Positions 427 to 19,294 of a DNA stretch of 64,000 nucleotides are shown in pieces (within the stretch, counting starts at the first letter, position 1; each line of letters begins with the position of its first letter). Source of the DNA: Paracoccus saliphilus (GTDB taxonomy: Bacteria > Pseudomonadota > Alphaproteobacteria > Rhodobacterales > Rhodobacteraceae); the NCBI RefSeq assembly GCF_028553805.1, contig NZ_CP067140.1, forward strand, positions 2,480,001-2,544,000, written 5' to 3'. The notes beneath the pieces were generated by a model, which worked only from the letters and a program-made list of their open reading frames with translations, was not told where the DNA came from and ran no database searches. The position numbers and the translations under genes are program-made.

Positions 427-3400
427 TCAGTTTCTGTCAGTCAGGTTCGCGCGCCCGGTAAATGTGGAAAGCTTTGGATGTGCCGCACGCAAGACCTCCG
501 CATTGATCCGGCCATCCCTAAGCATTTTCTTTACCCATAGAAGCATGGGCCCTATCGCCTCTACTTGCGGCGATAGGGCCGTCTTTCCCAAGGGAGATTC
601 GAGTGCCTCCAGCCCGGCGGTCTCGACTTCCTCTGAGTGCTTGCGCGCTGTTGTGACGGCTTTCAGACGGCGAAGCGTCGGTCGCATTCGCCGCAAGAAC
701 GCCTGATGATTGCCAGTTTGGCGCCACATCCGAAGGCTTTTTGCACGTGATTGCTCTCGCATCATCTGCACGAAGATCTCGGCGATTGACGTGTCGGACT
801 GAATCCGGGGGCGAACGAAAGGGACGGCTCTGCTGCCTGTCAGACTTTCGGACAATAAACGAAACTTGACTGCCTTCTGCTTGTGATTGAACCCGCCATT
901 CTGCGTCCGGGCTGCGGTATTGGGCACGACATCACTTGCCTCAAGCTCCCCGGACCGGATGCCGTTTTGTATAATTTGCTCTGCCAGCGGAGTACGGGTA
1001 ACGATCACGCTGTTCCCCATACCGTCCTGCTTGTACTCCGGCAGCCAAGCGTCTCCCAATGAGATGTCGGCCAGTTCGGTCATCACGTCAGTACAAAAGT
1101 CACATGCTCTGGATTTGAAAAGACCTGTTCCCCACATATCCCCGAGCTTCTGCATGCGCACGCGGCGCTCCTTGCCAGTCGAGTCCGTTGCCGCAAAGGA
1201 ATAGTCGCTGGAAAGGCTTTCTGGGTTCTTTACGCGATATTCAGCGTCCCGATACGTTCCCTCAATCCCGGCGCTCTGGGCAAGAAAATCGGTGTAGAAA
1301 CGGCTTTTTAGTCCGCCGCAGATGATGCCCGCCACGAACGGAATCTTCTCCTTTAGCTCTGGATGGTAATGTTGCTTCAGCCTGATGGCCTTTACGAAAC
1401 AAGACACCGCCGAGACCGCAATCCGCCCCTCGATTGTTTCGATAGTGGCAAATAGTTGGTCCATGGAGACGGGAATATACCGCGTCTTGGATGAGGTTTC
1501 GATGTTTTCGGACGCGTCGAAGATGCGATAGCTATATTGACCGTCGGAGGACTTGCGGACCACAAAGAGATGATCGACTTCGCCCCGTCGCAGAAGCTGG
1601 TCGAAGACATAAGTCGCGACGCCGCCGGACGAAGATGTGGGACGAAAGGCCGTACTATACCCCACGTAGGTCCCGATAAATCTGCCCAATCGCAGATCAG
1701 ACTTGTCGGCATGCGGCAGACAAATCTTGGCCAGCGCGTCCTCGTCCTCAACCAGCTTTTCTGGGGCCGGGTTGAACGGGCACACTCTAACGGCTTCGGC
1801 TGGAACCTTGCCGTTTGTTGCCCTGGGCTCAAGGAACCCATCTTGAGTCCAGACCATCTTCAACGTTCCGCACGATTCCGAGACGCACACGCCGCAGCCC
1901 GTACACAGGACATTCAGAGGATGGTTGTCCGCGCCTAACGCAGGTGCAGAACTGGCCATTGCCGTAACATCGCTGGCAAGTGGTAAGGGTGCCTGCTTGG
2001 ACGGAGCATCGGCAATGCCTGACTTGCCACCGCTTCCGTTCGGCTGGCCGCCTAAAGCATCCGTCAGGAATTTGAACGACTTCGCGCGCAGCGCATCAAG
2101 GCGCCCGTTGACTGCCTCCCAATCGATTGGGCGCAACAGGCTGTCTATATCCACCTCGTCCGAATCTACGACGATCCGATCTTCCAGCCCTACGGCCTTC
2201 AATAAGGACTGGAACCTGGCCAACCCCCGCTTGGCGTTTCCGTACGCCACAAAGGGGCGATTGAAGATGATCGAGAATGCGACCCCATGAAAGGAATCAG
2301 TGACGACATATGAGGCGTTGTGAAATGACGCCAGCCAAGCCTCCACCGACTTGTCTCCGCCCTCGTCCTTTAGTGGATCGGCAGACTCAAAGGGCTGGCC
2401 GCTGGTCGTTCGCGGCTCAACTGAAAGTGCGTTGGAGATCCGGTTGATGACGTCGAGCTTGTCAGGAGTTGCGTCAAGCACGTAGGTCAGCAAATGCCCA
2501 CCCTCGGAGGATCGCTGGCTCTCTGCAAGGAGGGCGGCGTAATCTTTCTTCGACAGCAAAAGCGTCGGGTCCAAAACGTGCTGGGCTTCAACTCCGAATA
2601 TATTCCGACAGAGATCAACGGCACTGTCTTCCCGGACCGAGACGGCATTGAATAACTGCAGAAGCGGTGCCGCGTTGGCCTTTTCGTCGGCCTTGTACTC
2701 GTCCTTTTCACTACCGAATGATGCGGCGTAAGCAATCCTTCTGGTGTCGCGGTCATCTTCGTCCAGGAACCCTAGGAAGAAATCGCGAAGAAGGCCTCTC
2801 GCGTATTTCGGCCGCCAGACTTGATCGCTGCCTACGATCACAGCATCGAAACCATATTCTCCAAACTGCTTACTAAGTGCAGCACTCGAATGAAATGCCC
2901 TTGAAATGGGAGTCATGTATTTTTCCACGAAGATGCGGTTCTGGACCTTCTTACCAAGACCGATCCGATCAGCGTAAAGAGGTATGTTGGCATCCGGCGC
3001 CAAGTCTTCGGGTACTGTGCCTGGGTCTTTCGACCCCGGACGTCGGTTCAGCAACACGGGACGATGACCAAAATCGCGCAAGACTTGCATCAGCGCGAAT
3101 GCCTGCAGGTTTCCACCATAGTTGCGGTTCATTGGCAGCGTCAGAATACCAATTTGCAGAGACCGCGCAGCTGCTTCCTCCACCTGTCTCTCCGAGGGTA
3201 TGTCGCTAATCTGCGCATATACCGTGTTCGGCCGGGTTACAGTGTTCTGCGATGGAACTGTGTCGGGCTTGGCTACCGTGTGCCGTTTGGAATCCGAGTG
3301 CGTCGGCGAAACTGCCTCGGCATCCGGAAGATCGATCGCCAGAGACTCGCGCAGCAGCTTTGCCGCAGAGGGTCCAGAGGGGCCACGAGTTTCGATGATG

Positions 3401-5007
3401 CGCAAGGCTGCGGATATCTTGTCTGGGTGGTCGAGATTCAGCTCTATTGCCTGCGGATGGTCTTCAAGGAAGCGCTTGAGGCGAAGTCTGGGGTCGGCCA
3501 TCTTACCTTCGGCGATCAAGGTCTCGACCTCGGCAGGTGTCTCGGCCCCGGTCAGAACTTGACGCAATGGGGGACGGCCATGCTGCGATTTCCGAACATA
3601 TTTGGCCTTTGTCTGGGCTATATGGGTAGGATAACCGGATAGTATCTGGTCATCATCACGCGACAGGACGATCAAGATTTCCTCATCCAACGGCCAGCCG
3701 TCCTTTGGCGCAGCGCGCTGGTAGTTGTGAAACCAGCGCACGCCCAAGGTTGCTTTCCGACCGTGTTTCTGTGCCCGTTTGAGACCTTCCGCCAGATTGG
3801 TGAGTGGCCGTTTGCCGAATGTCTGTTCTGGCCAGAACATCGCTTTGTTCGAGCGCGCCTGCTTGAATATTCGCCCAGAGATTTCGGTTGATCCCGCAAG
3901 GCCCGAATCAGCGATACTCAGCAAGGTCGAATGCGGAATGTCACCGTCGATCAGTTTTTCGACACTGACCTTTGGAGACATCTGAGACACAAGATCGCGC
4001 GAACGCTGGATGTCGTCCTGATCGAGGTTGCCGACCGTGCTTTTCTCTAGAATACTGCGCAATTGTTGTACATTCGGGTTCGCAAGGATCGTTTCAAGCC
4101 TTTCGAACCGCGCTGTGACAGATTTTCTGTGCAGCTCTGCCAGCATCGGGTCTGCAAACAAGCGATCCCGTTCCTGTTCAAATCCCGTCAAGTTATCGGC
4201 CACGACCAGGTCAGAGACCTGATTGTAATCGGCCTTGCGCCAGTAATCGATGCCGTGACGGTTAGAGTTCATCAGGCCGTCGCCACGGAAGATCTTGAGC
4301 AGGTATTCATCCAGGCTCTTGACCATGTAATGCGCGACCTCGGCGAAGTCGCGGTGTATGGCCTGGCGCCCGCCGTTCCAGGTCAATGTCTCCCGCTTCA
4401 ACGGCTGGCCGCCGGCATCAATCCACGACGCTTTCCCCGGGGAGCTGATGGGTACGCCCCCCTTCATCAAGGGCTTTGGAAAATGGATCGCCAGGCGAAG
4501 ATTATCGGCTTGCCGGAACAGGGTTTTGACGCCGACCTTCGGCAGGCTAGAAGCGTCCATCGACTGATTGAAGCGCTTGATGACCGGCCGATCTTCGAAC
4601 TCGATGTTATGGCCTGACCCGAACAGTCGCCACGGGATTACCATCATGTCGGCTGACCTGTCCTGCATGACATCTATGAGCACGTCCAGCGTGTGCGGCG
4701 CCTTTTTCACGACTAGAAATTCGTCGGCATCTAGAACCATGACGAAATCCGCCGATTTGACCTCGGGAGTCAGATTGGCAATCTTGAGCGCACGGGAATG
4801 TGGTTTGGCGCCCGTCGGCACCTCGTTTTCGTAATAGGCGATTACACCCATCTCATGCAGCCGAAGAAGCATTTCATGGGTGCCGTCGGTGCAGTCATTT
4901 GCCAAGACGACGACCCGGTCGAAGCCAAGAGCCCTGTGATAAGCAACCCATTCTATGATGTAGGGCGCTTCGTTCTTCATGGAGGTGACGACGGTTGATA
5001 TGGGCAT
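427..5007 (-). CDS. Trimodular glycan protein: GT2-type glycosyltransferase, polysaccharide pyruvyl transferase, FrhB-like iron-sulfur domain
   Basis: This 1526-residue protein reads as three enzymes in one chain. Residues 1-300 resemble a family 2 glycosyltransferase, starting with TVVTSMKNEAPYIIEW and carrying DADE at 93-96. Residues about 618-980 match polysaccharide pyruvyl transferase, with NYGGNLQAFALM near 629, GSDQVW at 726-731 and DSFHG at 904-908. Residues about 1033-1430 match the coenzyme F420 hydrogenase beta-subunit (FrhB) family, with ferredoxin-like cysteines 1035, 1038, 1041 and 1046. No membrane span or signal peptide is seen, so it should be cytosolic. FrhB-like proteins often neighbour pyruvyl transferases in polysaccharide clusters; a single fused chain is unusual. 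It probably builds or decorates a surface glycan. Start ATG at 5007. Confidence 0.85.
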   Translation of the reverse strand: MPISTVVTSMKNEAPYIIEWVAYHRALGFDRVVVLANDCTDGTHEMLLRLHEMGVIAYYENEVPTGAKPHSRALKIANLTPEVKSADFVMVLDADEFLVVKKAPHTLDVLIDVMQDRSADMMVIPWRLFGSGHNIEFEDRPVIKRFNQSMDASSLPKVGVKTLFRQADNLRLAIHFPKPLMKGGVPISSPGKASWIDAGGQPLKRETLTWNGGRQAIHRDFAEVAHYMVKSLDEYLLKIFRGDGLMNSNRHGIDYWRKADYNQVSDLVVADNLTGFEQERDRLFADPMLAELHRKSVTARFERLETILANPNVQQLRSILEKSTVGNLDQDDIQRSRDLVSQMSPKVSVEKLIDGDIPHSTLLSIADSGLAGSTEISGRIFKQARSNKAMFWPEQTFGKRPLTNLAEGLKRAQKHGRKATLGVRWFHNYQRAAPKDGWPLDEEILIVLSRDDDQILSGYPTHIAQTKAKYVRKSQHGRPPLRQVLTGAETPAEVETLIAEGKMADPRLRLKRFLEDHPQAIELNLDHPDKISAALRIIETRGPSGPSAAKLLRESLAIDLPDAEAVSPTHSDSKRHTVAKPDTVPSQNTVTRPNTVYAQISDIPSERQVEEAAARSLQIGILTLPMNRNYGGNLQAFALMQVLRDFGHRPVLLNRRPGSKDPGTVPEDLAPDANIPLYADRIGLGKKVQNRIFVEKYMTPISRAFHSSAALSKQFGEYGFDAVIVGSDQVWRPKYARGLLRDFFLGFLDEDDRDTRRIAYAASFGSEKDEYKADEKANAAPLLQLFNAVSVREDSAVDLCRNIFGVEAQHVLDPTLLLSKKDYAALLAESQRSSEGGHLLTYVLDATPDKLDVINRISNALSVEPRTTSGQPFESADPLKDEGGDKSVEAWLASFHNASYVVTDSFHGVAFSIIFNRPFVAYGNAKRGLARFQSLLKAVGLEDRIVVDSDEVDIDSLLRPIDWEAVNGRLDALRAKSFKFLTDALGGQPNGSGGKSGIADAPSKQAPLPLASDVTAMASSAPALGADNHPLNVLCTGCGVCVSESCGTLKMVWTQDGFLEPRATNGKVPAEAVRVCPFNPAPEKLVEDEDALAKICLPHADKSDLRLGRFIGTYVGYSTAFRPTSSSGGVATYVFDQLLRRGEVDHLFVVRKSSDGQYSYRIFDASENIETSSKTRYIPVSMDQLFATIETIEGRIAVSAVSCFVKAIRLKQHYHPELKEKIPFVAGIICGGLKSRFYTDFLAQSAGIEGTYRDAEYRVKNPESLSSDYSFAATDSTGKERRVRMQKLGDMWGTGLFKSRACDFCTDVMTELADISLGDAWLPEYKQDGMGNSVIVTRTPLAEQIIQNGIRSGELEASDVVPNTAARTQNGGFNHKQKAVKFRLLSESLTGSRAVPFVRPRIQSDTSIAEIFVQMMREQSRAKSLRMWRQTGNHQAFLRRMRPTLRRLKAVTTARKHSEEVETAGLEALESPLGKTALSPQVEAIGPMLLWVKKMLRDGRINAEVLRAAHPKLSTFTGRANLTDRN

Positions 5008-5249: not shown

Positions 5250-7868
5250 TTAGGTAACTTGCGGCAGGGACGGATCATCCTCATCGACCAGGCGAGGCCC
5301 GGCCGGGTTCATGAGCGCGGCCCGCATATTACCGTAATCGACATCTTGGATCGCGATCTCCTGCGCGGCCGCCATGGCCGCTGCCTGCCCCATGCTCTGC
5401 CCGGCCTGCATCGCGGTGACCTCCATGCGCACCGAACCGAAAGCAACCGTGGTCAGGGACGTAGCGAACAGCACCGAGAGGTTGGTGCAGTTGGTTTCCT
5501 TCGGTATATAGGTCTCGAAGGGCACGGGGTTGGCCTTATTGCTGCCGCCCTGACCTCGAACGAAGCCGCCCTCCATCCATGTCATCCACTCGCCCGCCTC
5601 GTATTCATAGGCGATGATGCTCATGACATGGTGGTCGAAGGGATAGGAGGCAACGGCCACGGTCTTCGTGCCGAGATTCGGATATTCACCATCGGGCTGG
5701 TTCAGGTCGCGGGCGTCCATGACCGCCTTGCCGAGCATCCGGACGCCTTCGCGGACGTAGAATTGCGGGGTGTCGAAGACCGCGTCGTTCTCGTGGTGGT
5801 TATGATAATGATCGGCACGCATCCCCCAGGTCAGCGCCTCGGCGCGCAGCTCTGAGGGAACACGGGGATCGTCATGATGTTGCAGCGCGTAGAACAGGTT
5901 CAGGATATGCTCCCAATGCGCCTTCCAGATTGCCTCCCGCTCGGCATATGTTGCTCCCGGATAGGTCTTGCTCATACCGACCCAATCGGTCGAATAGCCG
6001 TGGCCGGTATTGATATCGTAAACGCCCTGCGAAATGCCATCCAGCTTGAAGAGATCGTGCATGCGGATCAGCGGATCGAGCACTAGGTGACGGAACAGCA
6101 TCTCGAACCGGGCCGGGTCCCATGACGGCTGCGGCGTGGTCGGAAGCGGCACAAATCTCGCAGCATCAGTGCCCCATGCCAGCCGGAAGTTGAACGCCTG
6201 CAGCTCGTCGTCGGCCGATCCCAATGGCGGCTGATCGTGCAGATCGGGCGAAAACTCACTATAGATACCGGTCACCTCGGGGATCAGCCCGGAGGTGGTG
6301 TCGCCGGGGATGGCCCAGGGATCGACATAGGCGTATCCGCCCTCGGTCATCTGGAACTGCTTGGAATAGGATGAGTAATTTGTAGCAACCCCGCGATAGC
6401 CACCCGCGTTCTCGGCTCCTGCCCCTTGCATCTCGCGACCAACGCGCCACGGGACACCGGCAGCGACCAGCAGGTCGCCCTCGTAGCTGGCATCGATGAA
6501 CTGCTTGCCGATCACCGTGCGACCATCGACCGTGACCATGCTGGTGATATCCGTATCGTTCTTGCTGACGCTGGACACGCCATCCGAGTAAAAGACCGGG
6601 ATCTCGTATCCGCCGTTTGTCGAAGGATCGAGCAGCTCGCGCATCACGCGGCTGAACATACGCGGAATGAACGGAATACCGCTCGACGACCCGCCATGCA
6701 TGGTACGCGCCTTGCGGATGATCCAGCGGGGAATACCGGTCAGGAACTCCATTGCCCTAAAATCGGTCCAGCCGAGGCCGGAGGCCGACATGCCGCCGAT
6801 ATGGCGGTCGCGCCAGCCGCCGATGATGGCCACGCTCGCCCCGGCCCGCGCCGCCTGTAACGCCGCCGTGACGGCCTGCGGCGTGGTGCCGTAGATCACC
6901 ACGTCGACGGTGACCGTTTCCGGCCCGAGCCCGGCGGGCGTCAGGTCATATTCGCCATACCGGATCGCATCGAGAAATGTGCCGATCGCGCCGGTCAGTT
7001 CCCGCGCCTCGGTCTCGGTCAGCGCCGCTCCGAAGGCCCAGGCTGCCTGCTTGTGCGGGGAGTAGTCGGGCGAGAGCGCACCATCCACCGTCGCGGCCAG
7101 CAGAGTGATGCTCTGGGCGATCGGCGCGGCGGAAACGTCCGATGCCTGCGGCTTGGCCACGCCATTGCGCAGGCCGACACTGCCCGCTGCAACGGACCTG
7201 CGGGCGGCGGTCAGGCCGTAGCCGTCAGAATGCCCCGCAGGCGCAACCATGGCCTCCTGCCCCTGCGTCCGGGCCGTGGAGGAGTCGCTGGCGCTGCGAA
7301 CGCAAAGCGAGATACCATTGCCCGCCGCATCAACCGCGCCATAATCCAGGTTGTCGCTCTGGAGGGTGATGCCGTTGTGATCCGTGCCCTTGCACCAGAC
7401 CCCATGAAAGACATCGTCCTGGGCAAGATCGGAGGGTGCGAGTCCCGAATCGAGTGCCTGACCCGCCCCGGTCGCCTGCCAACCATCATCGGGCGAGAAT
7501 GTCGGCGCGCCGATCTTGCTCATGGCCGAGGCGGGCGTTTTCCAGTTCAACAGGCTTTCCTGTTCGGTCGCGCCGACAATGTGAAGGTTGGTCAGTTTCG
7601 CCCAGATGCCGGTGGCCTTCAGACGCTTGATACAGGTATCGATCGTGCGGATGCGGCGTGCGGAGGGTGGCACCGTGAAGGCTTCGACCAGGGCCGTGGT
7701 TTCGGCCTCCTCGACATAGGGCGAGATGCTGCCCGTGACAGGGTTGATGATCTCCGGGACATCCGTGCCGGGATCCATACCCAGGGAGGAAAGAAAATTC
7801 TCGATCCCGGTGCTGGTCAGGAGCGGAACCTGCGCGCCCAGGCCATCGAGCAATCGATAGCGGGCCAT
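5250..7868 (-). CDS. Phage tail fibre-like protein fused to an FAD-dependent oxidoreductase domain
   Basis: The 872-residue product has two parts. Residues 1 to about 300 look like the fibre module common in Rhodobacteraceae phages: IDTCIKRLKATGIWAKL, a stretch starting LLNWKTPAS, and a closing ALTETEARELTGAIGTFLDA. From about 320 onward it resembles the FAD-dependent oxidoreductase family (PF12831 type), with a Rossmann start VDVVIYGTTPQAVTAALQAA, then GGMSASGLGWTDF and DASYEGDLLVAAGVPWRVGR. The ATG overlaps the stop of the upstream fibre gene (TGATG), so it is part of the tail module. Presumably it is carried on or near the virion tail; its substrate is unknown. A pure cargo enzyme role is possible, but the fibre-like N-terminus argues against it. 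Confidence 0.75.
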   Translation of the reverse strand: MARYRLLDGLGAQVPLLTSTGIENFLSSLGMDPGTDVPEIINPVTGSISPYVEEAETTALVEAFTVPPSARRIRTIDTCIKRLKATGIWAKLTNLHIVGATEQESLLNWKTPASAMSKIGAPTFSPDDGWQATGAGQALDSGLAPSDLAQDDVFHGVWCKGTDHNGITLQSDNLDYGAVDAAGNGISLCVRSASDSSTARTQGQEAMVAPAGHSDGYGLTAARRSVAAGSVGLRNGVAKPQASDVSAAPIAQSITLLAATVDGALSPDYSPHKQAAWAFGAALTETEARELTGAIGTFLDAIRYGEYDLTPAGLGPETVTVDVVIYGTTPQAVTAALQAARAGASVAIIGGWRDRHIGGMSASGLGWTDFRAMEFLTGIPRWIIRKARTMHGGSSSGIPFIPRMFSRVMRELLDPSTNGGYEIPVFYSDGVSSVSKNDTDITSMVTVDGRTVIGKQFIDASYEGDLLVAAGVPWRVGREMQGAGAENAGGYRGVATNYSSYSKQFQMTEGGYAYVDPWAIPGDTTSGLIPEVTGIYSEFSPDLHDQPPLGSADDELQAFNFRLAWGTDAARFVPLPTTPQPSWDPARFEMLFRHLVLDPLIRMHDLFKLDGISQGVYDINTGHGYSTDWVGMSKTYPGATYAEREAIWKAHWEHILNLFYALQHHDDPRVPSELRAEALTWGMRADHYHNHHENDAVFDTPQFYVREGVRMLGKAVMDARDLNQPDGEYPNLGTKTVAVASYPFDHHVMSIIAYEYEAGEWMTWMEGGFVRGQGGSNKANPVPFETYIPKETNCTNLSVLFATSLTTVAFGSVRMEVTAMQAGQSMGQAAAMAAAQEIAIQDVDYGNMRAALMNPAGPRLVDEDDPSLPQVT

Positions 7869-9616
7869 CAGTCCAGTACACCACCCATCACATTGTCGAT
7901 TCGGCAGCCCGAGATATCGCCTGACGCGGCATTTGCCCCGATTCCGATCATGCCGCCATCATAGGTAGATGCTTCAGCCGTGAGCGCTTCGACGCCATCG
8001 ATATAAGCGCGGAGCATCTTCCCGTCCCGCTCCAGCCGGGCCGTCACCGGATAGGTCAGAAAGCCCGAGGACGTGGCCGCAAGGGTGACGGTGTTCAGCG
8101 CTTCGTCCACCTCCTCGAGAACCAGCTGCGAGGAGCGCAAGTTGAGGCGGTAGCCGGCATGGGTCTCTGGGGGCATGTTGATATAGAGGAAGGTGCCTTT
8201 CCCCGAAGAAAGACTGCTGCTTCCGCCGAGGACATTGGCCTCGATGAACTGATCGGGCGGCAGGAACTGTTTCGACTGCACCACCGGCAGCGCGTTCGAC
8301 GCGCTTGGCTGCGCAGCATTATTAACGATCGTCATGAGCGCGCCCTGCGTTCGCACGTTCACCCAGAGATCATCATTGGTGGCGAGCGGTTCGTCGGCCC
8401 GGTTGAAGCTATCCGCGAAACTCAGGATGGGTGCGGGCTCGACCTTGGCATGCAGATCGACCCCGGCATGCATCTTTGCGCTTGGATCATCGAAGGTCCG
8501 CCACATGACCATGGCTGCCCCCGCAGGGCGGTCAGGGATCGTGGCACGCCGCTGCACGACGGTTTGCATGGAGCTGGACATGCCGGTCTGCAATTCCTGG
8601 ATGGCGAGCAGGACTGACTGGATGATGGATTCCTTCGCCACCTTGGCGATCCGGATCCAGTAACCGTCATTGGCGGTCGGGACGCGCCCTTCGGCGGGCG
8701 GGCTGCCCTGGTCCCCCGATTTGCGCCACATCTCCATGTAGTCGCTGGTGAGCGTGGTGGTGACGATCATCCTGGTGCTGGCAGGGACCGTATAGGTCTC
8801 CGGTGTCTCGGCCTCAATAAAGACTGGCCGATCCGTCCATTTGGCATCGTTCGCGTCGAGCCGGGCATCACGGGCGAGCCGCTCGGCCATGGATTCCGCC
8901 GAATAGACGATCCGCATGATGGTATTGCTATGGATCTCGGCGAAATAGGTTCTCCCCTCAAGCAATCCTTCGGCGGGCAAGGGGCTATGGTTAGTATCGC
9001 GAACCTGGCGGGAAATGCTGCCGATCGTGCAAGAGGGCCCCTCCTGGGTATTGGTGCCGAGCGCCACGAAGCGAACGGTGCTGCCGGTACCGACGGTCTG
9101 ACCTTCCAGACCGGGCGCGAGCTCCGCCGTAAAATTATCCGCGGTACCGGTCAGGTTGACCAGGCGGATGACGCCAGCCTGATCGATCTCGGCCTTCGTG
9201 GCTCCGCCAAGAATGACTCGAAGCGTGCCGCCCCGGCGGCGCAGAAGATAGGACCGGCCCGGCACGAAAGCCTTCGCCCGCCAGGTGCCGCCGTCATCGC
9301 CACGGATGTCGAAGGTGGTACCGGCGATGGTCATGGTGGGGTTGGCGGTATCGTTGGTCGTGAGCGGGATATACTCGATCGTGGAGCCGCCGGAGATCTG
9401 CGTGATGCCGGCATTGACGAATACCGGTGCGATATCCGCCGTGATCGCGCTGCCGGTGCCGCCGATATTGACCGTTATGATCGCAGCGCCATCGCGAATG
9501 GCGGACCCGACATCAGCCTCCAGCCCGTCAATCTTCCCCCATAGCGCCCGAACCCCGCCCTTGGATACCGGCTGGCCGGAAACGTAAACGCTGCTTGCAT
9601 CATTTTGGAATGTCAT
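7868..9616 (-). CDS. Phage tail fibre / receptor-binding protein
   Basis: The 582-residue protein starts at an ATG preceded by GTGAGG. The N-terminal third is rich in Gly, Thr and Ile repeats typical of beta-structured fibres. The C-terminus (about 400-582) resembles a LamG/concanavalin-like jelly roll, from FADSFNRADEPLATNDDLWV through TARLERDGKMLRAYIDG. It is cotranscribed with the flavoenzyme-fibre gene (1-base overlap) and separated from the host-specificity gene by a terminator-like hairpin. Host receptor binding is inferred from position and composition. Confidence 0.7.
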   Translation of the reverse strand: MTFQNDASSVYVSGQPVSKGGVRALWGKIDGLEADVGSAIRDGAAIITVNIGGTGSAITADIAPVFVNAGITQISGGSTIEYIPLTTNDTANPTMTIAGTTFDIRGDDGGTWRAKAFVPGRSYLLRRRGGTLRVILGGATKAEIDQAGVIRLVNLTGTADNFTAELAPGLEGQTVGTGSTVRFVALGTNTQEGPSCTIGSISRQVRDTNHSPLPAEGLLEGRTYFAEIHSNTIMRIVYSAESMAERLARDARLDANDAKWTDRPVFIEAETPETYTVPASTRMIVTTTLTSDYMEMWRKSGDQGSPPAEGRVPTANDGYWIRIAKVAKESIIQSVLLAIQELQTGMSSSMQTVVQRRATIPDRPAGAAMVMWRTFDDPSAKMHAGVDLHAKVEPAPILSFADSFNRADEPLATNDDLWVNVRTQGALMTIVNNAAQPSASNALPVVQSKQFLPPDQFIEANVLGGSSSLSSGKGTFLYINMPPETHAGYRLNLRSSQLVLEEVDEALNTVTLAATSSGFLTYPVTARLERDGKMLRAYIDGVEALTAEASTYDGGMIGIGANAASGDISGCRIDNVMGGVLD

Positions 9617-9629
9617 GCTGACCTCACGT

Positions 9630-9655
9630 AAAAAAGCGGCCCTCGATGGGACCGC
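9630..9655 (-). terminator. Intrinsic terminator between tail-tip gene and fibre genes
   Basis: On the minus strand GCGGTCCC, a short loop and GGGCCGC are followed by six T residues (9630-9635). The stem has one bulged T. It would end or attenuate the late transcript before the fibre cassette. Confidence 0.65.
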
Positions 9656-9684: not shown

Positions 9685-11727
9685 TCAGGCGGGGTAATTG
9701 CCGATCACGACCGGATTGGATTTGACCCGGGACGGATTTTCCGACTGCAGCCAGAACTTCGCCCCGGCGGCCGGGATGGAGGCGCTCATCGTCACATCGC
9801 TCGACGTGTCATAGGACCACTTGATGAGCACCGCCTGCCCGAAACTGCCACCCGCCTCGGCACGGTACAGCCCGGTGCGGCGGTAGTTCGCGCCGAGATC
9901 GGGCTGGAAGGTCACGTTCAGATTGCCACCGGCCGAGCCGCTTTCGGAAAAGACCACCGGATCGTCCGGCGGGGTATTGTTCGCCACGACATCGATGCCG
10001 ATAACTTCGGTGGGGACCGACTGGATGATCAGTTCGCGGCCGCCGGAGCTGTTCTGATACCGACCGAAGAAGACCCGGACATCGTATTCCTGCAGATCGG
10101 CCAGCGGCACAGTGCGGAACGAAAAACCACCGCCCGAGGTCGCCTCGGCGATCATGTCCGTCCAGGTCCCGCCGGATGTCCGGCGATACTGTCCGAGAAG
10201 CCGATAGCCCGTAGCACCGGTAATCGCTCCCTTGACCCGGATGTAGGGCGCACCGTCATCGGTGATGACCTCGACGGATGTGATCGAGGTTTCCAGAATA
10301 TCCGAGCCGCGGTCGATCTCTATCGGTGGTGTGGGCGGCTGGCCTTCCTGCGCAGCCGTCTGGCTGAACGAGCCCGGATCGGCCTCGATCAGGCTGACGG
10401 TAACATTGGTGCCATCATAACCAAGGCTGTCGATCCAGAATGGCGTGCCAATCAACCCGAGACGCGGGATATTGACCGCCACCCGGCGTTCCCCGATCAG
10501 GCGCAAACCGAAGGCCCGCAGCGTCAGGCTCATGCTGCGGTGCGGGTTCATCCGGGCCAGCTGCTGCCTGCAGAGATGCGCGGCCTGGCCGTGATGCTGC
10601 ACGGCCAGCAGATCGACACCCTTCGGTTGACCCTCGCCCCAGAGCGCGATGGCGGCACTATCCTCGACCGGATCGGCATTGGTTTCCTGCCAATGGATCT
10701 CCGGCGCGACATAGGTCGGCACCAGCGTGGTAATGCGGGCGATCCGCTCGGTCCCGGCGCCGTAATCCATCTCAACGACATGGCGTTCCTCGATGGTGAT
10801 CTCCGGCGCGGACCAGACCCCTGCCTCGACAGCCAGCTTGCCATCATTGGTGATCCAGGCCCGGCCGCCCATCGCGTCCAGCAGTTTCTGGGCGGTATCC
10901 TTGACCGGCTCGGCCAGCGCATGGCTCAATCCCGATTGGTATCGTAGCCGCGTACCGCCTGCGGTGGGTACCTCCGCATTGCAATCGGGGCGGGCGGCGT
11001 TGAAACTGGCGGCATCGAGATCGCCCGCCCGCATCGGACCGTAGACAGGATGGCCGAGCAGATCGGCGAGATGCACCACCGGGTTGCGCGACCAGGGATA
11101 ATTGTCTCCGGTCACGGTCCAGACCGGCACCGCGCCCTCGATCAGCGCCGTAACCTTCGGCTCACCGCCGGAATAGAGCTCGCCGATATCATTGCCGTCA
11201 ACGGCATCGAACATGGCGAGGATCGTGCCGACGCCGCGCATCCGGTGATCCGTGGTCCAGTTGTTCGGAAAGGCGTCCCGCAGCACCTGGTAAGCCCCGC
11301 CATCCCATTGGTCGCCCTGAATGCCCTTGCGCCAGACCAACCGAACATTACCCTTGTTCCAGGGCGCCGTGGTCACATAGCCGCTACTGTCCACATCGAC
11401 CGGCTCACCGTTCAGGTAGAAGCGGATGACATCTTGCATGCCCCCTTCCGCGACGGCCAGCAACTTGAACAACCGGCGATTGCCATTGACATGGGTCCAA
11501 TCCCAGAAACAGACCGTGCCACCGGTCCGGACCCGGCCGAGATGTCGATAGCGCTGCGCGTTGCTGGATTTGACCTCGTTCTGCACATCCTGCGGACGCG
11601 GCCCTTTCGGAGCCGTCAGCTTTGCCAGCGCGTAATTGATCGCGACAGAGGCCCCGATCTTCAGGGCAGCGGCGGCAACCCCGCCGGCTTTCAATGCCCC
11701 GATGATCCATGCCCCGACAGCAGCCAT
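9685..11727 (-). CDS. Tail-tip host-specificity protein (lambda J / GTA gp15-like)
   Basis: The 680-residue protein begins MAAVGAWIIGALKAGG, a hydrophobic Ala/Gly-rich start usual for central tail-tip proteins. Its ATG overlaps the previous stop. The middle (about 190-460) resembles the tail-tip hub region of gpJ-like proteins, with LADLLGHPVYGPMR and VKDTAQKLLDAMGGRAWIT. A fibronectin-III-like region follows around 530-660 (AITGATGYRLLGQYRR, PLADLQEYDVRVFFG). It comes after the peptidase-like gene, as J follows K and I in lambda. Expected role: forming the tail tip and contacting the host. Confidence 0.85.
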   Translation of the reverse strand: MAAVGAWIIGALKAGGVAAAALKIGASVAINYALAKLTAPKGPRPQDVQNEVKSSNAQRYRHLGRVRTGGTVCFWDWTHVNGNRRLFKLLAVAEGGMQDVIRFYLNGEPVDVDSSGYVTTAPWNKGNVRLVWRKGIQGDQWDGGAYQVLRDAFPNNWTTDHRMRGVGTILAMFDAVDGNDIGELYSGGEPKVTALIEGAVPVWTVTGDNYPWSRNPVVHLADLLGHPVYGPMRAGDLDAASFNAARPDCNAEVPTAGGTRLRYQSGLSHALAEPVKDTAQKLLDAMGGRAWITNDGKLAVEAGVWSAPEITIEERHVVEMDYGAGTERIARITTLVPTYVAPEIHWQETNADPVEDSAAIALWGEGQPKGVDLLAVQHHGQAAHLCRQQLARMNPHRSMSLTLRAFGLRLIGERRVAVNIPRLGLIGTPFWIDSLGYDGTNVTVSLIEADPGSFSQTAAQEGQPPTPPIEIDRGSDILETSITSVEVITDDGAPYIRVKGAITGATGYRLLGQYRRTSGGTWTDMIAEATSGGGFSFRTVPLADLQEYDVRVFFGRYQNSSGGRELIIQSVPTEVIGIDVVANNTPPDDPVVFSESGSAGGNLNVTFQPDLGANYRRTGLYRAEAGGSFGQAVLIKWSYDTSSDVTMSASIPAAGAKFWLQSENPSRVKSNPVVIGNYPA

Positions 11728-12110
11728 CAGTTCCCCCAGATTGCGATTGCGCCGCGCCGGCTCATGCTGACGCCGCGCGGGGTGCGGAATGTCCAATGCG
11801 TGCCGGTCCAGATCGCTGCGACCCGGCGGCCTGCGATCTCGATCACGCCGATATCGCCGATTTCGGGGACATCCTTGCGCGGCAACGGGATCTCGGGGGC
11901 GACGAGATCGACCAGGCCGGTCCCGGTCAGCGCCTCGGCTTCGGCTTCCGTGCCATAGGTGCCACGAAACCGGGCCGCCGGATCCATGCCCCACCTGATC
12001 ATGCACCAATCGGCCACCCAGATCGTGCAATCCTGCACACCCCAGGCCCAGGGCAGATCAAGGCTGCGCCGGATGTAGCGGTCGAGCTGATCCGCTATCA
12101 CTTCAACCAT
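11727..12110 (-). CDS. Tail-tip NlpC/P60-like protein (DUF6950-like)
   Basis: The 127-residue protein contains LPWAWGVQDCTIWVADW, matching the W-G-x-x-D-C pattern around the catalytic cysteine of small peptidase-like tail proteins. A Gly-Asp-rich middle and an HWTFRTPRG segment could supply the histidine. In siphoviruses and in gene transfer agents this position encodes a cell-wall peptidase that assists tail-tip penetration. The start overlaps the upstream gene by 13 bases. Confidence 0.7.
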   Translation of the reverse strand: MVEVIADQLDRYIRRSLDLPWAWGVQDCTIWVADWCMIRWGMDPAARFRGTYGTEAEAEALTGTGLVDLVAPEIPLPRKDVPEIGDIGVIEIAGRRVAAIWTGTHWTFRTPRGVSMSRRGAIAIWGN

Positions 12111-12667
12111 CCCTTGATGGTCTTGCCATCCATCGTGGCGACATAGTCGAAGCCTCGATCCACGACGCCCGGATAGCGCCGCGCCTGATCGCGTGGCGTG
12201 TATTCCCCGAGCGGCGTGTAATTGCGCGCCGCCGCGATGCTTTCGGCGCGGATACGGATCGAGGCCGAGGCGGCACTTTCACTGGGTCGCACATCCATGA
12301 TCTGGCCGACATGCAGCACGATGGCGTCATCCGGGAATCCGCGCACGGTCCAGAGCTGCCGGATGCGCTTGCCCGACCAGAGTTCCGGGTTGTTCAGTGC
12401 CTGGTAGGCAAGGGTCTCGCCCTCCTTGTTGCCGATATTCCAGACGGTGTAATAGGCCGGCGCGGCATCGAAAGGATTGCCCGAGATTTCCAGCGGCTCG
12501 GCGGCGATCCAGCCCTTTGATGCCTGCCAGACCTGGCCGGCCACGGTCATTTCCGTATTGCCCTCGTTCAGGAAATACTCCTCCGCCCCGAAATCGACAT
12601 GGAACAGCCGGACCAGCTCGACCGCTTCTGGATCGCGATCAAGGAATGCACGCAGTTCAGGCGACAC
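12098..12667 (-). CDS. Tail-tip protein, possibly DUF2163-like
   Basis: I chose the GTG at 12667 because reading begins VSPELRAFLDRDPEAVELVR and overlaps the preceding stop by 11 bases; residues further upstream are antisense-like. The 189-residue product lies between a minor tail protein and the NlpC/P60-like gene, the place of gp13/DUF2163 proteins in gene transfer agents. Features include ISGNPFDAAPAYYTVWNIG and a conserved-looking end DRGFDYVATMDGKTIKGW. The family assignment rests mainly on synteny. Confidence 0.6.
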   Translation of the reverse strand: MSPELRAFLDRDPEAVELVRLFHVDFGAEEYFLNEGNTEMTVAGQVWQASKGWIAAEPLEISGNPFDAAPAYYTVWNIGNKEGETLAYQALNNPELWSGKRIRQLWTVRGFPDDAIVLHVGQIMDVRPSESAASASIRIRAESIAAARNYTPLGEYTPRDQARRYPGVVDRGFDYVATMDGKTIKGWLK

Positions 12668-13355
12668 GATCGAAGGCCTCGACAAAGGTGAGCGAGATCG
12701 GCGCGGCATAGCTGAGGATATCCCGCGCGCGAGCGCCCTCGTCATCCGTGGCGAAGCGGCCATGAAAACGGGGCGGATCGGTTTGCAGCACCGTACCAGC
12801 CGGGATCGCTTCCCGCGCATCCGGCTCGAACCGGACCCAGCCCTGATCGTTGCGGCGCACCACGCGATAGAGGAACCCGTTGACGCTGAACATGTCGCCC
12901 CGCCGGAAGGATGGCCGCACCGGGTCGGTCATTCCGACCGTGAGCGTGTTGGCCCCCGCAGCGCCACCCGTCTCGACCACCATGGGCTGCACACCGCCCG
13001 ACTCATCGAGAAACCCGGTGCCATCGTCGAACCAGGCACCGTCGTCAGTATCATCGAACTGGGAATCCTGCAGCGGACTGACCTGTTCGCCGTAGCGATA
13101 TCGATCGTAAAGACACAGATCGGCGATATTGAGGCGGCCGCGCATCATCGAGACATGCGCCTCGAAATCCTTGATCATCTGTTCCTCGGCATAGACCGAC
13201 AGGGACAGCCGAACCTCCCAATGCGCCGCACCGTTGGAGATGATCTGATCGGTGCCTGCCAGCGACACACCGGAGGTCCGGGTGGTATGTTTCAGGAACA
13301 CCCGGCAGGAGGTCAGCCTCAGCAATTCGCAGGGCCATTCAATGAGCTCGGGCAT
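12657..13355 (-). CDS. Minor tail protein, distal-tail-like by position
   Basis: The 232-residue protein follows the tape-measure gene with a 1-base overlap. It begins MPELIEWPCELLRLTSCRVF and includes VYAEEQMIKDFEAHVSMMRG. I recognise no catalytic motif. The gene directly after the tape measure normally encodes a distal tail or tail-tip adaptor, and a mostly beta, acidic protein of this size fits. Function is inferred from order alone. Confidence 0.6.
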   Translation of the reverse strand: MPELIEWPCELLRLTSCRVFLKHTTRTSGVSLAGTDQIISNGAAHWEVRLSLSVYAEEQMIKDFEAHVSMMRGRLNIADLCLYDRYRYGEQVSPLQDSQFDDTDDGAWFDDGTGFLDESGGVQPMVVETGGAAGANTLTVGMTDPVRPSFRRGDMFSVNGFLYRVVRRNDQGWVRFEPDAREAIPAGTVLQTDPPRFHGRFATDDEGARARDILSYAAPISLTFVEAFDRVA

Positions 13356-15442
13356 TAGCCATATCTCTCGTCATTATTGGCCGACACGCGGCGCAGGCTT
13401 TGGGGCAGCTGGGTTCGGTCGTATTGTTGCAGGCCCTGCTGCGTTATCAGGCCAGCGCGGCGATCGACAAATGCCTGGAGATTGCCAGTCTCCGGATCGA
13501 CGCCGACCGTGACATGCGCCTCGTTGCGATTGGCCTGATCCACCATCCGGGCTGAAAGATCATGCGGAATAACCGTCGAGCCACCGGGCAGGTTGACCAG
13601 CTCGCCGCCACGCTCATTGATCCGGGCTAGGCCGCCCCGGAAATTCTCCACGCCATTGGCAAAGCCGGGGATCAACCCAGCCAATCCGGACAGGATACCG
13701 CCACCGGAGGCATTGAGCCCGGCGCCGCGAAGCGCGTTTGTCAGCGGATCGCCCGTAAGGCTATTGAACAGGCCGCCGAGGCCGGACGAGAGCATTTTCT
13801 TTGCAAACTGCTGCAGGACGTCGGACATGCTGCGCGTGCGGGTAATGACGTCCGCCGCGAGATCCCCGAATTTCTTGCCCATGTCTTCGGTTGCCCGGGA
13901 GGCGTCCTTCACGGAATCCTTGAGTTTGTCGATCCCGGCCGAACCTGCGCTACCTGCCTTTCCGGCAGAACCACCAGCATCCTCCAGCGCGTCCCCGAGA
14001 TCGGTGATACTGGGAGTGGTGTTCTCTGCCTCCTTCTTGACCTTTGGAAATTCCGTCCGCAGATCGCCAAGGCCGAGCGCGGTCAGCTTGATGCCGGTTC
14101 CGGCATTTTGCATGGACTGCGTGACGGTGCCGGACATAGCCTTGAAGTTCTCTTCGGCGGCCGCCGACAAGGCTGCGGCTTCGGCGCGCAGATCCTCGGT
14201 AAGGCCACCGGTCCCGCCGCCTGTAGGCTTTACACTTCCAAGCGTCAGGAAGCTGATGCCCGTTGTCACCTTCCTGATGAAACTGTCCCATATCTGGGTC
14301 AGGTCGGCGACCATCGTGATGAAGTCGGATCGGACCAGGTTCCAAACACCCGCAAGCCCGGCCGGAATGGCCTTTGCGGAATCAACAATCCCCTGCCAGA
14401 CCAATTCCGCGATGCGGCCCAATGTCTCGAATGCATTGCCGACGCTCCCGGTTGTCTCGATGAGACCGGTGAACCGGTAGATCAGCTCACCAATTCCTAC
14501 AATCGCGATCCCGATCCCGGACCGAAGCAGCGCCCCCCGCAATGCGGCCAATGCGCCAACGAGCGAAAATGTGGCAATTCGTGCCGCGACAAGCGCCGCC
14601 ACGAACCGCGTCCCGAATGCCGCAACGGCGGTGCCGATATAGGTGATGATCCGGTCGATATTGCCGGCCAGCCCGTCGATCATGGCGCGCAGTGCGCCGC
14701 CTTCGCGCAGGCTGGCGGTCATGGCATCGGCCATGCGCCCCATGGCGGGGACCAACTGCAGCGCGAGCTGCTGGCCTGCATAGCGTGTGACCAGGCCGAG
14801 GCGGCCGATCGAGTCATTGGCAGATTCGATCCGGCCAGCCTCGACGCTGTCCAGGGCCAGACCATAATCCTCGACATCCCGGCGGGCGCGACGGACGGCG
14901 TCACCGCCCTGGATCATCAGCAAGGCGACCTCGCGGTTCCGCACCCCGAGATCGCGCAGAACGGCTGTTGCTTCACCCGAGGACAGGCCGAGCGCCTTCA
15001 CCGCGTCGGAGATCGTGGCCAGCTTCTCATCGGCATCGAGACCCGTCAGATCATCGAGACTAAGCCCGAGCCGTTCCAGGGCCCGGTCGGCATTCCCGGA
15101 GGTGCCGATATTGGCCAGCTCGCGGTTGATGTTCTGGATCTCGTTGGGCAGCGAAGAGACGGACACGCCCGCCTCGCTGGCGGCGAGTTTCAAAGCCTCG
15201 AACGCGCCGATCGAGGCATCCAGCCGGCGCGCCGCCTTGGCCGCCTGATCGATATCCTGGGCGCCCTTGAGGGCCGCTGCGCTGATCGCCGCCCCTGTCG
15301 CAGCGGCGACCGAGGCGACACGGCGGAACTGCTGCCCGAAATCCCGCAGCCGTTTCTGGCTCTCGGAAAGGCCCTTTTGGAACCGCGTCGCGTCGAGCCC
15401 GAGCAGGGCCTGCATGCGGCCGATCAGCTTTGTGGCTGCCAT
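13355..15442 (-). CDS. Tail tape-measure protein
   Basis: The 695-residue protein starts MAATKLIGRMQALLGLDATRFQ, typical of lambda-loop tape measures. It has long Ala-rich helices at 1-230 and 430-560 and hydrophobic membrane-like segments around 270-330. The C-terminus is Gly-rich (GIDKLKDSVKDASRATEDMG, then a run starting SSGLGGLFNSLTG). ATG at 15442 overlaps the upstream stop as TGATG and is preferred over the TTG one codon earlier. It should set tail length and pass to the host membrane during injection; the length suggests a tail of ordinary siphovirus size. Confidence 0.88.
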   Translation of the reverse strand: MAATKLIGRMQALLGLDATRFQKGLSESQKRLRDFGQQFRRVASVAAATGAAISAAALKGAQDIDQAAKAARRLDASIGAFEALKLAASEAGVSVSSLPNEIQNINRELANIGTSGNADRALERLGLSLDDLTGLDADEKLATISDAVKALGLSSGEATAVLRDLGVRNREVALLMIQGGDAVRRARRDVEDYGLALDSVEAGRIESANDSIGRLGLVTRYAGQQLALQLVPAMGRMADAMTASLREGGALRAMIDGLAGNIDRIITYIGTAVAAFGTRFVAALVAARIATFSLVGALAALRGALLRSGIGIAIVGIGELIYRFTGLIETTGSVGNAFETLGRIAELVWQGIVDSAKAIPAGLAGVWNLVRSDFITMVADLTQIWDSFIRKVTTGISFLTLGSVKPTGGGTGGLTEDLRAEAAALSAAAEENFKAMSGTVTQSMQNAGTGIKLTALGLGDLRTEFPKVKKEAENTTPSITDLGDALEDAGGSAGKAGSAGSAGIDKLKDSVKDASRATEDMGKKFGDLAADVITRTRSMSDVLQQFAKKMLSSGLGGLFNSLTGDPLTNALRGAGLNASGGGILSGLAGLIPGFANGVENFRGGLARINERGGELVNLPGGSTVIPHDLSARMVDQANRNEAHVTVGVDPETGNLQAFVDRRAGLITQQGLQQYDRTQLPQSLRRVSANNDERYG

Positions 15443-16145
15443 CAAGACCCTCCTGTCCGGCTATCTGATTGCGGGATGCGCGCGGATGCATGCCGCGCGC
15501 GCCATTGATCCATGGTGATGCCGGGCAGGCTGGCGCGCACCCCGTCGAGATACATGCGCAGATCCGGCTTCTCGTCGGACTCGCGCTGCAGCAGGGTCTT
15601 GAGCCGGGGCAGCTTCTTCGCGCGGCTCAGCCCGGCCGATACCCATGCGGTGGTCAGCATCATGTCCTCCTGGCGGCGCTGGCGGAGCTGCGCGGCGTCG
15701 CATTCGATGAGCCAGAGCCGCGGGGTGATCTGCCAGAACCGGTCGGGATCGAGCCCGAGCGACAACCAGCCGGTATAGAGATCGGCGAGGTTCAGCGCCT
15801 CGCCCGGGACTTTCCCGTAGATTTGCCTTTTCCACGCGTACCCGCTTCCGGGAAAGCGGCATTGAGCAGGCGGATCGCGATCTCCTGGTCCGCCGTCAGA
15901 AGATCGTCAGCAAGGTCATCCGCCTCCTCGGCCTCCATCCGCATGCCCTTTTGAAGCGCGACAGAGATTGTATCGACCAGGATGCCGAAGTTGAGCAATT
16001 CGCCTTCGTCGCGATCCTCATCAAGCAGCCCGCCGATCGTCACGCCATGCTTGCGCTGCAGCTTGCCCAGCCCTCCCAGTGTGAGCCGCAGGGTCAGTTC
16101 ACGATCTTCATGTGTGACGTGCAATGCGCCTGTAATATCCGTCAT
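15442..16145 (-). CDS. Tail assembly chaperone GT, made by programmed -1 frameshift
   Basis: A reading frame in the -1 phase relative to the G-like gene is open from before the slip site to a stop at 15442. Slippage at GGGAAAG (15810-15816) would join about 112 G residues to about 122 T residues, giving a 234-residue GT product. After the shift the protein continues VPGEALNLADLYTGWLSLGL and ends DSRTGGS. In lambda the G and GT proteins bind tape measure and tail tube before assembly. Gene order here (tube, G, T, tape measure) is identical. The T part has no good start of its own, only a TTG at 15765. Confidence 0.75.
15792..16145 (-). CDS. Tail assembly chaperone G-like protein
   Basis: The 117-residue protein begins MTDITGALHVTHEDRELTLR and contains GGLGKLQRKHGVTIGGLL, resembling the small GTA/siphovirus chaperone family that precedes the tape measure. 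Its C-terminus is basic (GKGKSTGKSRARR) and covers the slip site. It starts 2 bases after the tail tube gene stop. Most ribosomes should make this short form. Confidence 0.75.
   Translation of the reverse strand: MTDITGALHVTHEDRELTLRLTLGGLGKLQRKHGVTIGGLLDEDRDEGELLNFGILVDTISVALQKGMRMEAEEADDLADDLLTADQEIAIRLLNAAFPEAGTRGKGKSTGKSRARR
15810..15816 (-). promoter_or_regulatory. -1 ribosomal frameshift slippery heptamer
   Basis: In the G frame the codons read ACG GGA AAG, so the heptamer is G GGA AAG, the X XXY YYZ form. It is the same heptamer used in lambda G/T. The 0-frame stop is at 15792-15794, and the -1 frame is open to 15442. Confidence 0.8.
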
Positions 16146-16147
16146 GA

Positions 16148-17836: not shown

Positions 17837-19294
17837 TTACTGGCCCGGGTTCTTGTAGGAGCCGCGGAACTCGACGGCCGCCGCGCCGAAGATGTGGCGG
17901 GCATTCATGACCACCGCATCGGGATTCATGCCCTCGATGGTCTGGACCGTGGGCGCATTGTAGCCCTCGAGATAGGCATGGGCGATCGGCGGCAGATCGC
18001 TGGAGACCAGGTACCAGGCTGTATCCGAGCCTCCAGCGGCCGCGCCGAGATTGGCCACCACGCTCGGCTGCAGCGAGGATTTGTACGGGTTTACATCGCC
18101 ATCCTTGTTGGGCGTCACCGTGGTGGCAAATTGCAACGCGACCAGTTCGAGCGCCGGTGGCACGATCAACCGATCGGGCTCGACCTGCATGAAATCGTCC
18201 TTGTCGGTCGAACCGAAGACCCGCTGTTCCCACATCGCCTTGCGCGCCTTGGCGACATTGGCTGCGTTGATCACCCCGGCCGTGCCGAGATTGTTGTGAT
18301 CGGCATGAAACAGCGCCTTGCCGTCCGATTTGAGCTTGGCATTGTTGCGGATCAGCGACCAGACCATGGCGCTTTCCATGGTGCGTGCGGCCATGGCGAA
18401 CTCGGTCGGGATGCGCTGGAAGGCGCCCATATCGTCATTGACCACCGCCTCGAAGGTCAGCTTGATGGTCCGGCCCCGGCGCTCGACCTTCAGCCCCTCG
18501 GCCTCGTCGGCCAGGGTGGCGGATTGATATTCGCCATTCTCCTGGACCGGTTTCAGCGAGAAATCCCCGCCGAAGCGGACCGAATGCAGTTCCCGGAAAT
18601 CCGTCGCCGTCAGCGGCGTGCCGGTGACCATCTGCCAGGACGCATTGCGGCGCTGATAGGCCGCGAGCAGGGATCGGTTCATCACCTCGGTGGTGACATA
18701 GGCAAAATCGCTGATCCCATGCGCGCCGCCCATCATGGTGGTGGCGCGCATGCCGCGCCGGATGGTCTCGGCATCGTTATAGCCCCGGCCGGGTCCCGCG
18801 AGTTCCATGGCGAGATGGCGCAGGCGCATGCCCCGGAATTGCTCCGCCGGCCCTTCACCCTGCCCCATCAGCGCCCCGATCATCCCCTCCATCCGGGTCT
18901 CGGATTCGTCGCGGGTGATCGTACTGCGGGGATTGGCGGAACGGCCCGGGGCTTCCGAGGCGGCCAGCATGGTCAGGACCTGCGCGCTGGCAGCGTCAGC
19001 ACTGACGCCCGTGTCGATCAGTTCATCGACCTGCGCCTGCATCAGCCGGCCCGAGGTCACGAAACTGGCCGTCATCTCGCGGATGCCGCGCACGCGGCTC
19101 CGCTCGCCCGCCAGAATATCCTCGGCCGAGGGTGCCTGCAGGCGCGTGGGCTCCGCCGGCTGCGGTGCGGACACCGGTGCCGGAGTTCCAGCCGGGGCCT
19201 GCATCGTGGCCGTGCCTGCAGGCGGGGTCTCATGCGCCGGATCGGCGGCGGGGGGATTGGCCGGTGTTCCGGCCGTCTTCGCTTTGTCAGCCAT
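17837..19294 (-). CDS. Scaffold-capsid product from an internal start
   Basis: Codon 246 of the fusion is ATG (19292-19294), preceded by AAGGAGGCCAAC, an ideal ribosome site at normal spacing. Initiation here would give a 485-residue scaffold-capsid protein lacking the protease. This resembles Nu3 made inside lambda C, where the internal product is needed in excess. The internal product has not been shown; it is predicted from the ribosome site. Confidence 0.6.
   Translation of the reverse strand: MADKAKTAGTPANPPAADPAHETPPAGTATMQAPAGTPAPVSAPQPAEPTRLQAPSAEDILAGERSRVRGIREMTASFVTSGRLMQAQVDELIDTGVSADAASAQVLTMLAASEAPGRSANPRSTITRDESETRMEGMIGALMGQGEGPAEQFRGMRLRHLAMELAGPGRGYNDAETIRRGMRATTMMGGAHGISDFAYVTTEVMNRSLLAAYQRRNASWQMVTGTPLTATDFRELHSVRFGGDFSLKPVQENGEYQSATLADEAEGLKVERRGRTIKLTFEAVVNDDMGAFQRIPTEFAMAARTMESAMVWSLIRNNAKLKSDGKALFHADHNNLGTAGVINAANVAKARKAMWEQRVFGSTDKDDFMQVEPDRLIVPPALELVALQFATTVTPNKDGDVNPYKSSLQPSVVANLGAAAGGSDTAWYLVSSDLPPIAHAYLEGYNAPTVQTIEGMNPDAVVMNARHIFGAAAVEFRGSYKNPGQ

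Follow-up and report, generated by a model that had tools for sequence, protein, structure and literature searches.

Genomic setting of the fusion gene

The window (the whole stretch of 64,000 nucleotides of Paracoccus saliphilus contig NZ_CP067140.1 that was analyzed) contains a lambda-like prophage, and the last tail gene of this prophage encodes a fibre-like module fused to an FAD-dependent oxidoreductase domain (Table 1; the protein is denoted P0001 below). The fusion gene sits in the late tail module, downstream of the tail tip gene, and is joined by a TGATG overlap to the stop of the upstream fibre ORF. Parts of this upstream fibre, mostly residues 1-260, are matched in 22 of the 125 genomes of the genus, its own genome included, and segments of it sometimes match more than once per ORF. 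For the J-like tail tip gene, the family match covers residues 102-661 and the true start is uncertain.

Table 1. Features of the prophage around the fusion gene (positions in the window)
Feature	Position	Strand	Remarks
GT2 (glycosyltransferase 2) + polysaccharide pyruvyl transferase + FrhB/FdhB protein	427..5007	-	1526 aa; next downstream of the fusion gene
Fibre-FAD oxidoreductase fusion gene	5250..7868	-	ATG start, 872 aa, no internal stop
FAD_oxidored domain	5253..6917	-	residues 318-872; Pfam, fold matches, conserved residues
Concanavalin A-like (LamG-type) module	6954..7730	-	residues 47-305
Upstream fibre gene	7868..9616	-	582 aa
Terminator-like hairpin, T6 tail	9636..9655	-	between the J-like gene and the two-gene fibre cassette
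J-like tail tip/central fibre gene	9685..12030	-	phrog_5616 E=1.1e-81, phrog_31 E=2.3e-18
Distal tail protein	12657..13355	-	phrog_1302 E=5e-22
Tape measure protein	13355..15445	-	phrog_8462 E=5.9e-51
Head protease-capsid fusion	17837..20176	-	phrog_133 E=1.1e-112, PF25209 E=1.2e-41
Lambda-family portal protein	20013..21743	-	PF05136 E=2.1e-90
Terminase large subunit, GpA type	21688..23856	-	PF05876 E=2.1e-67

An earlier note on this DNA, made from the sequence alone, described the two fibre genes as a cassette that follows a terminator and adjoins glycan cargo. The terminator-like hairpin with its T6 tail precedes the fibre pair, and the next gene encodes the GT2/pyruvyl transferase/FrhB/FdhB protein. 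Four terminator-like sites were found in this stretch compared with 2.4 expected in shuffles, so that their number alone is not significant, and a promoter scan yielded nothing convincing (four sites compared with 1.9 expected). Further downstream of the glycosyltransferase gene, beyond the window, lies a phage lysozyme gene (positions 16004-16552 of locus L022), which rules out a location of the fusion gene outside the prophage. Its origin as a phage duplicate of a host gene is ruled out as well: among the 32 PF12831 matches in the host genome, no other full-length gene was found, the other 31 reaching at most position 146 of the 416-position profile. Two genes on the plus strand (L022 10495-11793 and 13798-15552), which lie beside two tRNA genes close to what is presumed to be the left end of the prophage, have starts that by eye resemble AAA/OLD-type ATPases; they are possibly defence genes.

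Domain architecture and predicted fold

The N-terminal module of P0001 has a lectin-like fold, with the concanavalin A (ConA)-like profile aligning to residues 50-306. Residues 322-852 match the full length of the PF12831 (FAD_oxidored) profile, from position 1 to 416 of 416, in a Pfam search (E = 1.4e-58; 199.6 bits vs the cut-off of 27). This is the sole Pfam match of the protein at E ≤ 1, and no known glycan hydrolase, lyase or esterase domain was detected. In the AlphaFold model of the full chain (pLDDT 92.9, pTM 0.91) and in the model of the FAD domain folded alone from residue 316 (pLDDT 95.2), the second half of the protein is predicted to adopt a flavoprotein (two-dinucleotide-domain) fold. 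These results bear out the earlier reading of a fibre-like N-terminus extending to about residue 300 (the ConA part ends at ∼306 and the FAD part begins at ∼318), followed by an FAD-dependent oxidoreductase-like domain with the dinucleotide-binding motif VDVVIYGTTPQAVTAALQAA (present from residue 321); the structure prediction that had been proposed as a check gave the flavoprotein fold, in a model of the protein chain alone.

Sequence search found no close solved relative of P0001. The match to solved members of the fumarate/urocanate reductase family is confined to the N-terminal nucleotide-binding part of the FAD domain, and the VIA structural match to this family extends over 218 of the 557 residues. 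Foldseek TM-scores of the FAD domain are low (0.14-0.27 of the query), and the VIA alignments span only about 170-300 of the 557 residues. Given such partial structural alignments and the lack of a close solved structure, the substrate pocket of P0001 has no template.

A relative from the same genus, G018, retains the fusion gene, with 89% identity of the proteins. The dN/dS is 0.11 for the FAD part and 0.14 for the ConA part, values that point to purifying selection on both. The downstream GT2/pyruvyl transferase protein is retained along with it (85% identity). This fibre-FAD-GT cassette (L019/L020) belongs to a different element, with DarB-like/LPD39 genes and an integrase beside tRNA-Arg, and the upstream fibre gene appears there as two frames. 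The G018 orthologue, the dN/dS values and the wide family described below rule out a chance ORF or a frame artefact.

Distribution of the fused chain and of the lectin-like module

The initial reading of the gene as a fibre module joined to a flavoprotein domain is supported, and this combination is recurrent. A tblastn search of 50,697 phage records detected the whole chain in three Rhizobium phages (86-95% coverage, 38-40% identity). A single-sequence scan of viral contigs with P0001 gave no match, and 14 loci were recovered from IMG/VR by an alignment scan, 13 of which encode the ConA module and the enzyme in one frame (one of these, L032, is cut by the contig end) and one, L036, in two genes. 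According to the ConA profile, the module directly precedes the FAD domain in 26 of the 27 fused proteins, the exception being P0100, which has another N-terminus; among the FAD-only proteins tested by the same profile, none contained the module (best score E = 0.58). Some of the fused proteins contain extra sequence before the ConA-FAD pair, namely, an Ig-like Big_3_5 domain in L030, ∼380 residues in L035 and PF05345 in P0008. In the alignment, a short motif similar to PVLPQVN/T terminates most of the fused phage proteins, and the cellular enzymes L038 and L039 of rhizobia also have a PVLP stretch close to their ends.

The ConA module is common to other phage proteins encoded in fibre or structural regions, where it occurs alone or with other domains; the search for this module without the oxidoreductase that the earlier note had recommended recovered it in Microcystis phage Mwe-JY13, RHEph16, RHEph08 and phiM12. 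The whole-chain relatives with a known gene setting, that is, all except the database proteins P0002-P0005, P0008, P0121, P0122 and P0124, come from sequenced phages, viral contigs or the G018 element with its integrase and DarB-like genes. Neither of the refuting outcomes named in the earlier note, the lack of an FAD site in the model or a whole-chain homologue outside phages combined with absence of the protein from virions, was encountered in the flavoprotein-fold model or in these settings.

A 324-base match (77% identical) to a Paracoccus phage and a P. versutus replicon likewise points to Paracoccus as the probable host genus. Within the host genus, 11 of the 125 genomes match P0001 at E ≤ 1e-6: two encode the fusion, G022 encodes a split pair, and in eight the match is confined to the FAD part. 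Eight of 101 relatives match at E ≤ 1e-3, with the whole chain covered in G000 and G018. In the family sample, at least one of 394 genomes matches at 1e-15, and in the class sample, at least four of 385 at 1e-20, only G000 over the ConA module; at most two candidates per genome were scored among the matches listed, so that both counts are lower bounds. The best 80 of at least 583 relatives in the genome contig search are nearly all FAD-only.

Phylogeny and repeated recruitment of the enzyme

In the IQ-TREE phylogeny (75 sequences, with a random sample of 28 among the cellular ones), all 27 fused FAD domains fall together with a UFBoot of 97, and the 26 without P0100 group only at 68. The first FastTree tree (247 sequences) places all 27 in one clade (0.924); the second one (259 sequences) holds 26 of them together (0.986) and one apart, so that the common ancestor of all 27 then includes five cellular sequences. 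The fused clade joins six cellular proteins at UFBoot 100, two of which, the rhizobial L038 and L039, possess Tat-like signals. A rough rule finds a signal-like N-terminus in 184 of 216 cellular relatives, seven of the 216 being too long to judge and an uncounted number of sequences that do not start with Met having been dropped beforehand.

In the prophages of G022 and L036, the two parts are split: a fibre gene that ends with the same ConA module is followed by a gene for the FAD enzyme, and the pair directly follows the J-like tail genes. The G022 enzyme falls outside the fused clade and clusters with L143_FAD2 (UFBoot 100; 55% identity), an enzyme encoded at the end of a polysaccharide-export locus in another genome of the host genus, G058. 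The FAD loci were retrieved for four of the eight FAD-only genomes, G863 (L140), G865 (L141), G844 (L142) and G058 (L143 and L160), and one gene set is found in all of them: two proteins with polysaccharide pyruvyl transferase domains, one protein without a Pfam match, an ABC ATPase, an ABC-2 membrane protein, a methyltransferase-like protein and the PF12831 enzyme. Compared with L141, the non-enzyme members of the set show 66-87% identity. The G058 locus continues past the methyltransferase with a sulfotransferase-like gene (below the Pfam cut-off) and then the second PF12831 enzyme, L143_FAD2. Judging by its parts, the locus serves surface-polysaccharide export. The FAD enzymes encoded there have no evident signal peptide by eye and, therefore, may act inside the cell.

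Because the split G022 enzyme stands apart from the fused clade, flavoenzymes were set next to this fibre module on at least two occasions, and in the case of G022, the recruit came from a polysaccharide-export locus. L036 may represent a third recruitment; its grouping with the G022 enzyme is weak (support 76), in a group that takes in cellular enzymes.

An exchange slot in Kleczkowskavirus

Conserved heads with exchanged bodies are how tail fibre and spike enzymes evolve. An exchange of this kind is seen in one relative of the fused family, RHph_Y55; the comparison concerns this phage and does not extend to the slot of the window's own gene. The genomes of RHph_Y55 and RHEph04 are 92-96% identical at the DNA level on both sides of one gene, and the flanks in RHph_N17 are 80-85% identical at the same slot. 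Within the gene itself, DNA similarity between RHph_Y55 and RHEph04 is limited to ∼40 bases at the start and 9 bases at the end, with nothing in between. The slot is occupied by the ConA + FAD_oxidored protein in RHph_Y55; by a protein of 548 amino acids in RHEph04, named lysophospholipase L1-like esterase in RefSeq, with no Pfam match at E ≤ 0.01 and with a 99% identical counterpart in RHph_Y17 that is called hypothetical; and by a BNR_4 protein (E = 2.9e-13) with a ConA-like module at residues 460-691 in RHph_N17. The first ∼20 residues of the three proteins look similar, with weak BLAST support (E 0.02-0.2). Two genes further down, EVB71_025 and gp15 differ as well, so that the slot is not the sole site of exchange in this region.

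These settings bear on the possibility that the product is not a virion part at all but a lysogenic-conversion enzyme that, together with the GT/pyruvyl transferase, remodels the lysogen's own glycan inside the cell, with the lectin module serving as a glycan tether. Such a role would fit the location of the fusion gene between a terminator-like site and the GT/pyruvyl transferase gene, the recurrence of the cassette in a second, different element in G018, the relatives in the genus that neighbor pyruvyl transferases in polysaccharide-export loci and have no evident signals, and the presence of a gene annotated as integrase in RHph_I72, which encodes the whole chain. However, the whole chain is also present in RHph_Y55, where none of the 84 annotated genes is named integrase and where it stands in place of an 'esterase' or a BNR_4 protein, and the split versions directly follow the J-like tail genes and the fibre gene. 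On balance, lysogenic conversion seems quite unlikely.

A conserved putative active centre

The 27 fused FAD domains have a median pairwise identity of 39%. Among 18 polar positions chosen by hand from a list of those conserved in cellular relatives, nine (D369, R562, D618, N620, Y704, R706, R710, D745 and H747) are kept in all 27 fused domains and another eight in 24 to 26 of them, and H807 is histidine in only 20. P0001 keeps 17 of the 18. The residue at 807 is histidine in 99% of the 218 cellular relatives, threonine in P0001, its G018 orthologue and P0002, and serine, leucine or tryptophan in four other fused members. More generally, P0001 keeps 39 of the 43 positions that are conserved in at least 97% of the cellular relatives (P580, G657, R709 and H807 are changed) and 81 of the 114 that are conserved in at least 85% (33 are changed). 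The split enzymes deviate further, with Asn 463, Thr 620, Lys 747 and Glu 807 in G022, and Ser 620, Ser 710 and Thr 807 in L036. The arginine-rich set R562, R706 and R710 suggests an acidic ligand.

The earlier note had named both oxidation and the use of the fold for binding only; the conservation of the putative active centre tips this choice toward oxidation, that is, toward a working enzyme. The second option, in which catalysis is lost and the FAD domain is a receptor-binding fold that adds a second glycan-binding surface to the fibre, draws on the replacement of H807 in P0001, its two close relatives and the four other fused members, on the loss of further conserved residues in the split enzymes and on the lectin-like fold of the neighboring module, but nine residues that are invariant across domains this diverged and purifying selection on the FAD part speak for a kept active centre, and this option is, in our estimate, unlikely.

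A candidate function in host contact

By computation, we observed an intact fusion, a flavoprotein fold, a conserved putative active centre, recurrence in phages and at least two recruitments, as well as the exchange of bodies at one locus of related phages. The interpretation that we propose, with somewhat better than an even chance of being correct, is a fibre-borne flavoenzyme that acts on a surface glycan, in the role that is usual for depolymerases or esterases. The product of the fusion gene would be a modular host-contact protein of the virion, in which the short N-terminal segment and the ConA-like module put the protein on the particle and probably touch the surface polysaccharide. 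The PF12831 domain would take up FAD in the cytoplasm during folding, and on the particle, this C-terminal domain could oxidize the surface polysaccharide or an acidic substituent, such as uronic acid or a pyruvate ketal, and oxygen would probably accept the electrons. The glycan would be loosened or altered by such oxidation, making it easier for the particle to reach the cell.

A glycan as the target is suggested by the pyruvyl transferase domain next door and by the pyruvyl transferase proteins in all four chromosomal FAD loci examined. Counted against the proposed role are the altered residues (580, 657, 709 and 807 in P0001 and several in the split enzymes), the gene annotated as integrase in RHph_I72, the polysaccharide-locus relatives that seemingly are not exported, and the location of the gene among head/packaging genes, not tail-fibre genes, in the three Rhizobium phages. 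The enzyme could also have a substrate other than glycan, be it a phenolic, a pigment or a small molecule near the cell, or could attack locally by producing hydrogen peroxide; membership in PF12831 defines a fold and not a substrate, and no characterized close relative was found among the solved structures. However, the lectin-like partner module, the relatives in polysaccharide loci and the replacement by other enzyme-like bodies all suggest glycan, and we regard a different substrate as very unlikely. The broader proposition, to which we assign slightly less than an even chance, is that fibre enzymes were drawn from flavin oxidoreductases two or more times in phages of Alphaproteobacteria, in one case visibly out of a surface-polysaccharide locus, and that the virions carry FAD and oxidize an acidic surface polysaccharide of the host to gain access to the cell, a redox route through the glycan that takes the place of hydrolytic, eliminating or de-esterifying attack.

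Comparison with known systems

A search of the titles and abstracts of open-licence PMC papers found no description of a tail-fibre flavoenzyme, which might have been published elsewhere, and no virion proteome data for the protein were found in open-licence papers. For the T4-like phages of its cluster N, PMC10783043 refers to an FAD-dependent oxidoreductase, and a term search of PMC8245606 yielded no relevant match. If the proposed function is correct, a redox enzyme on a fibre would add a chemistry to phage entry, would suggest that a redox cofactor can travel with virions, and would provide a lead to the substrate of PF12831, a large and poorly characterized family.

The phage fibre and tailspike enzymes, including depolymerases, SGNH/GDSL esterases and sialidase-like domains, likewise consist of an N-terminal segment, a lectin-like module and an exchangeable body. 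These enzymes hydrolyze, eliminate or de-esterify, and to our knowledge, all fibre-borne enzymes are hydrolases, lyases or esterases; the body of P0001, in contrast, is a flavin oxidoreductase by its predicted fold. The Sinorhizobium T4-like phages phiM12 (SmphiM12_398) and phiN3 ('YapH') encode the same ConA-like module at the C-terminus, without the FAD domain, and in phiM12, the rest of the protein carries the annotation of a partial GDSL lipase (Pfam E = 0.031, below the cut-off). The cellular PF12831 enzymes, among them those of Agrobacterium larrymoorei (L038) and Rhizobium paknamense (L039) and the polysaccharide-locus enzymes L140-L143, share the FAD domain with P0001; L038 and L039 are 38-39% identical and bear Tat-like signals. 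None of the FAD-only proteins tested matched the ConA profile. The closest parallels are the proteins with the same chain, the ConA-like module followed by PF12831, in RHph_Y55 (EVB71_023), RHph_I72 (EVC26_036) and RHph_N3_19 (EVB99_110), the first two of which are annotated as FAD dependent oxidoreductase and the third one as hypothetical. The fusion genes of these phages lie in the head/packaging region and their products have histidine at 807, whereas the window's gene follows the tail tip gene and its product has threonine. These are sequenced phages with named hosts, and their near relatives with other bodies in the slot are natural controls.
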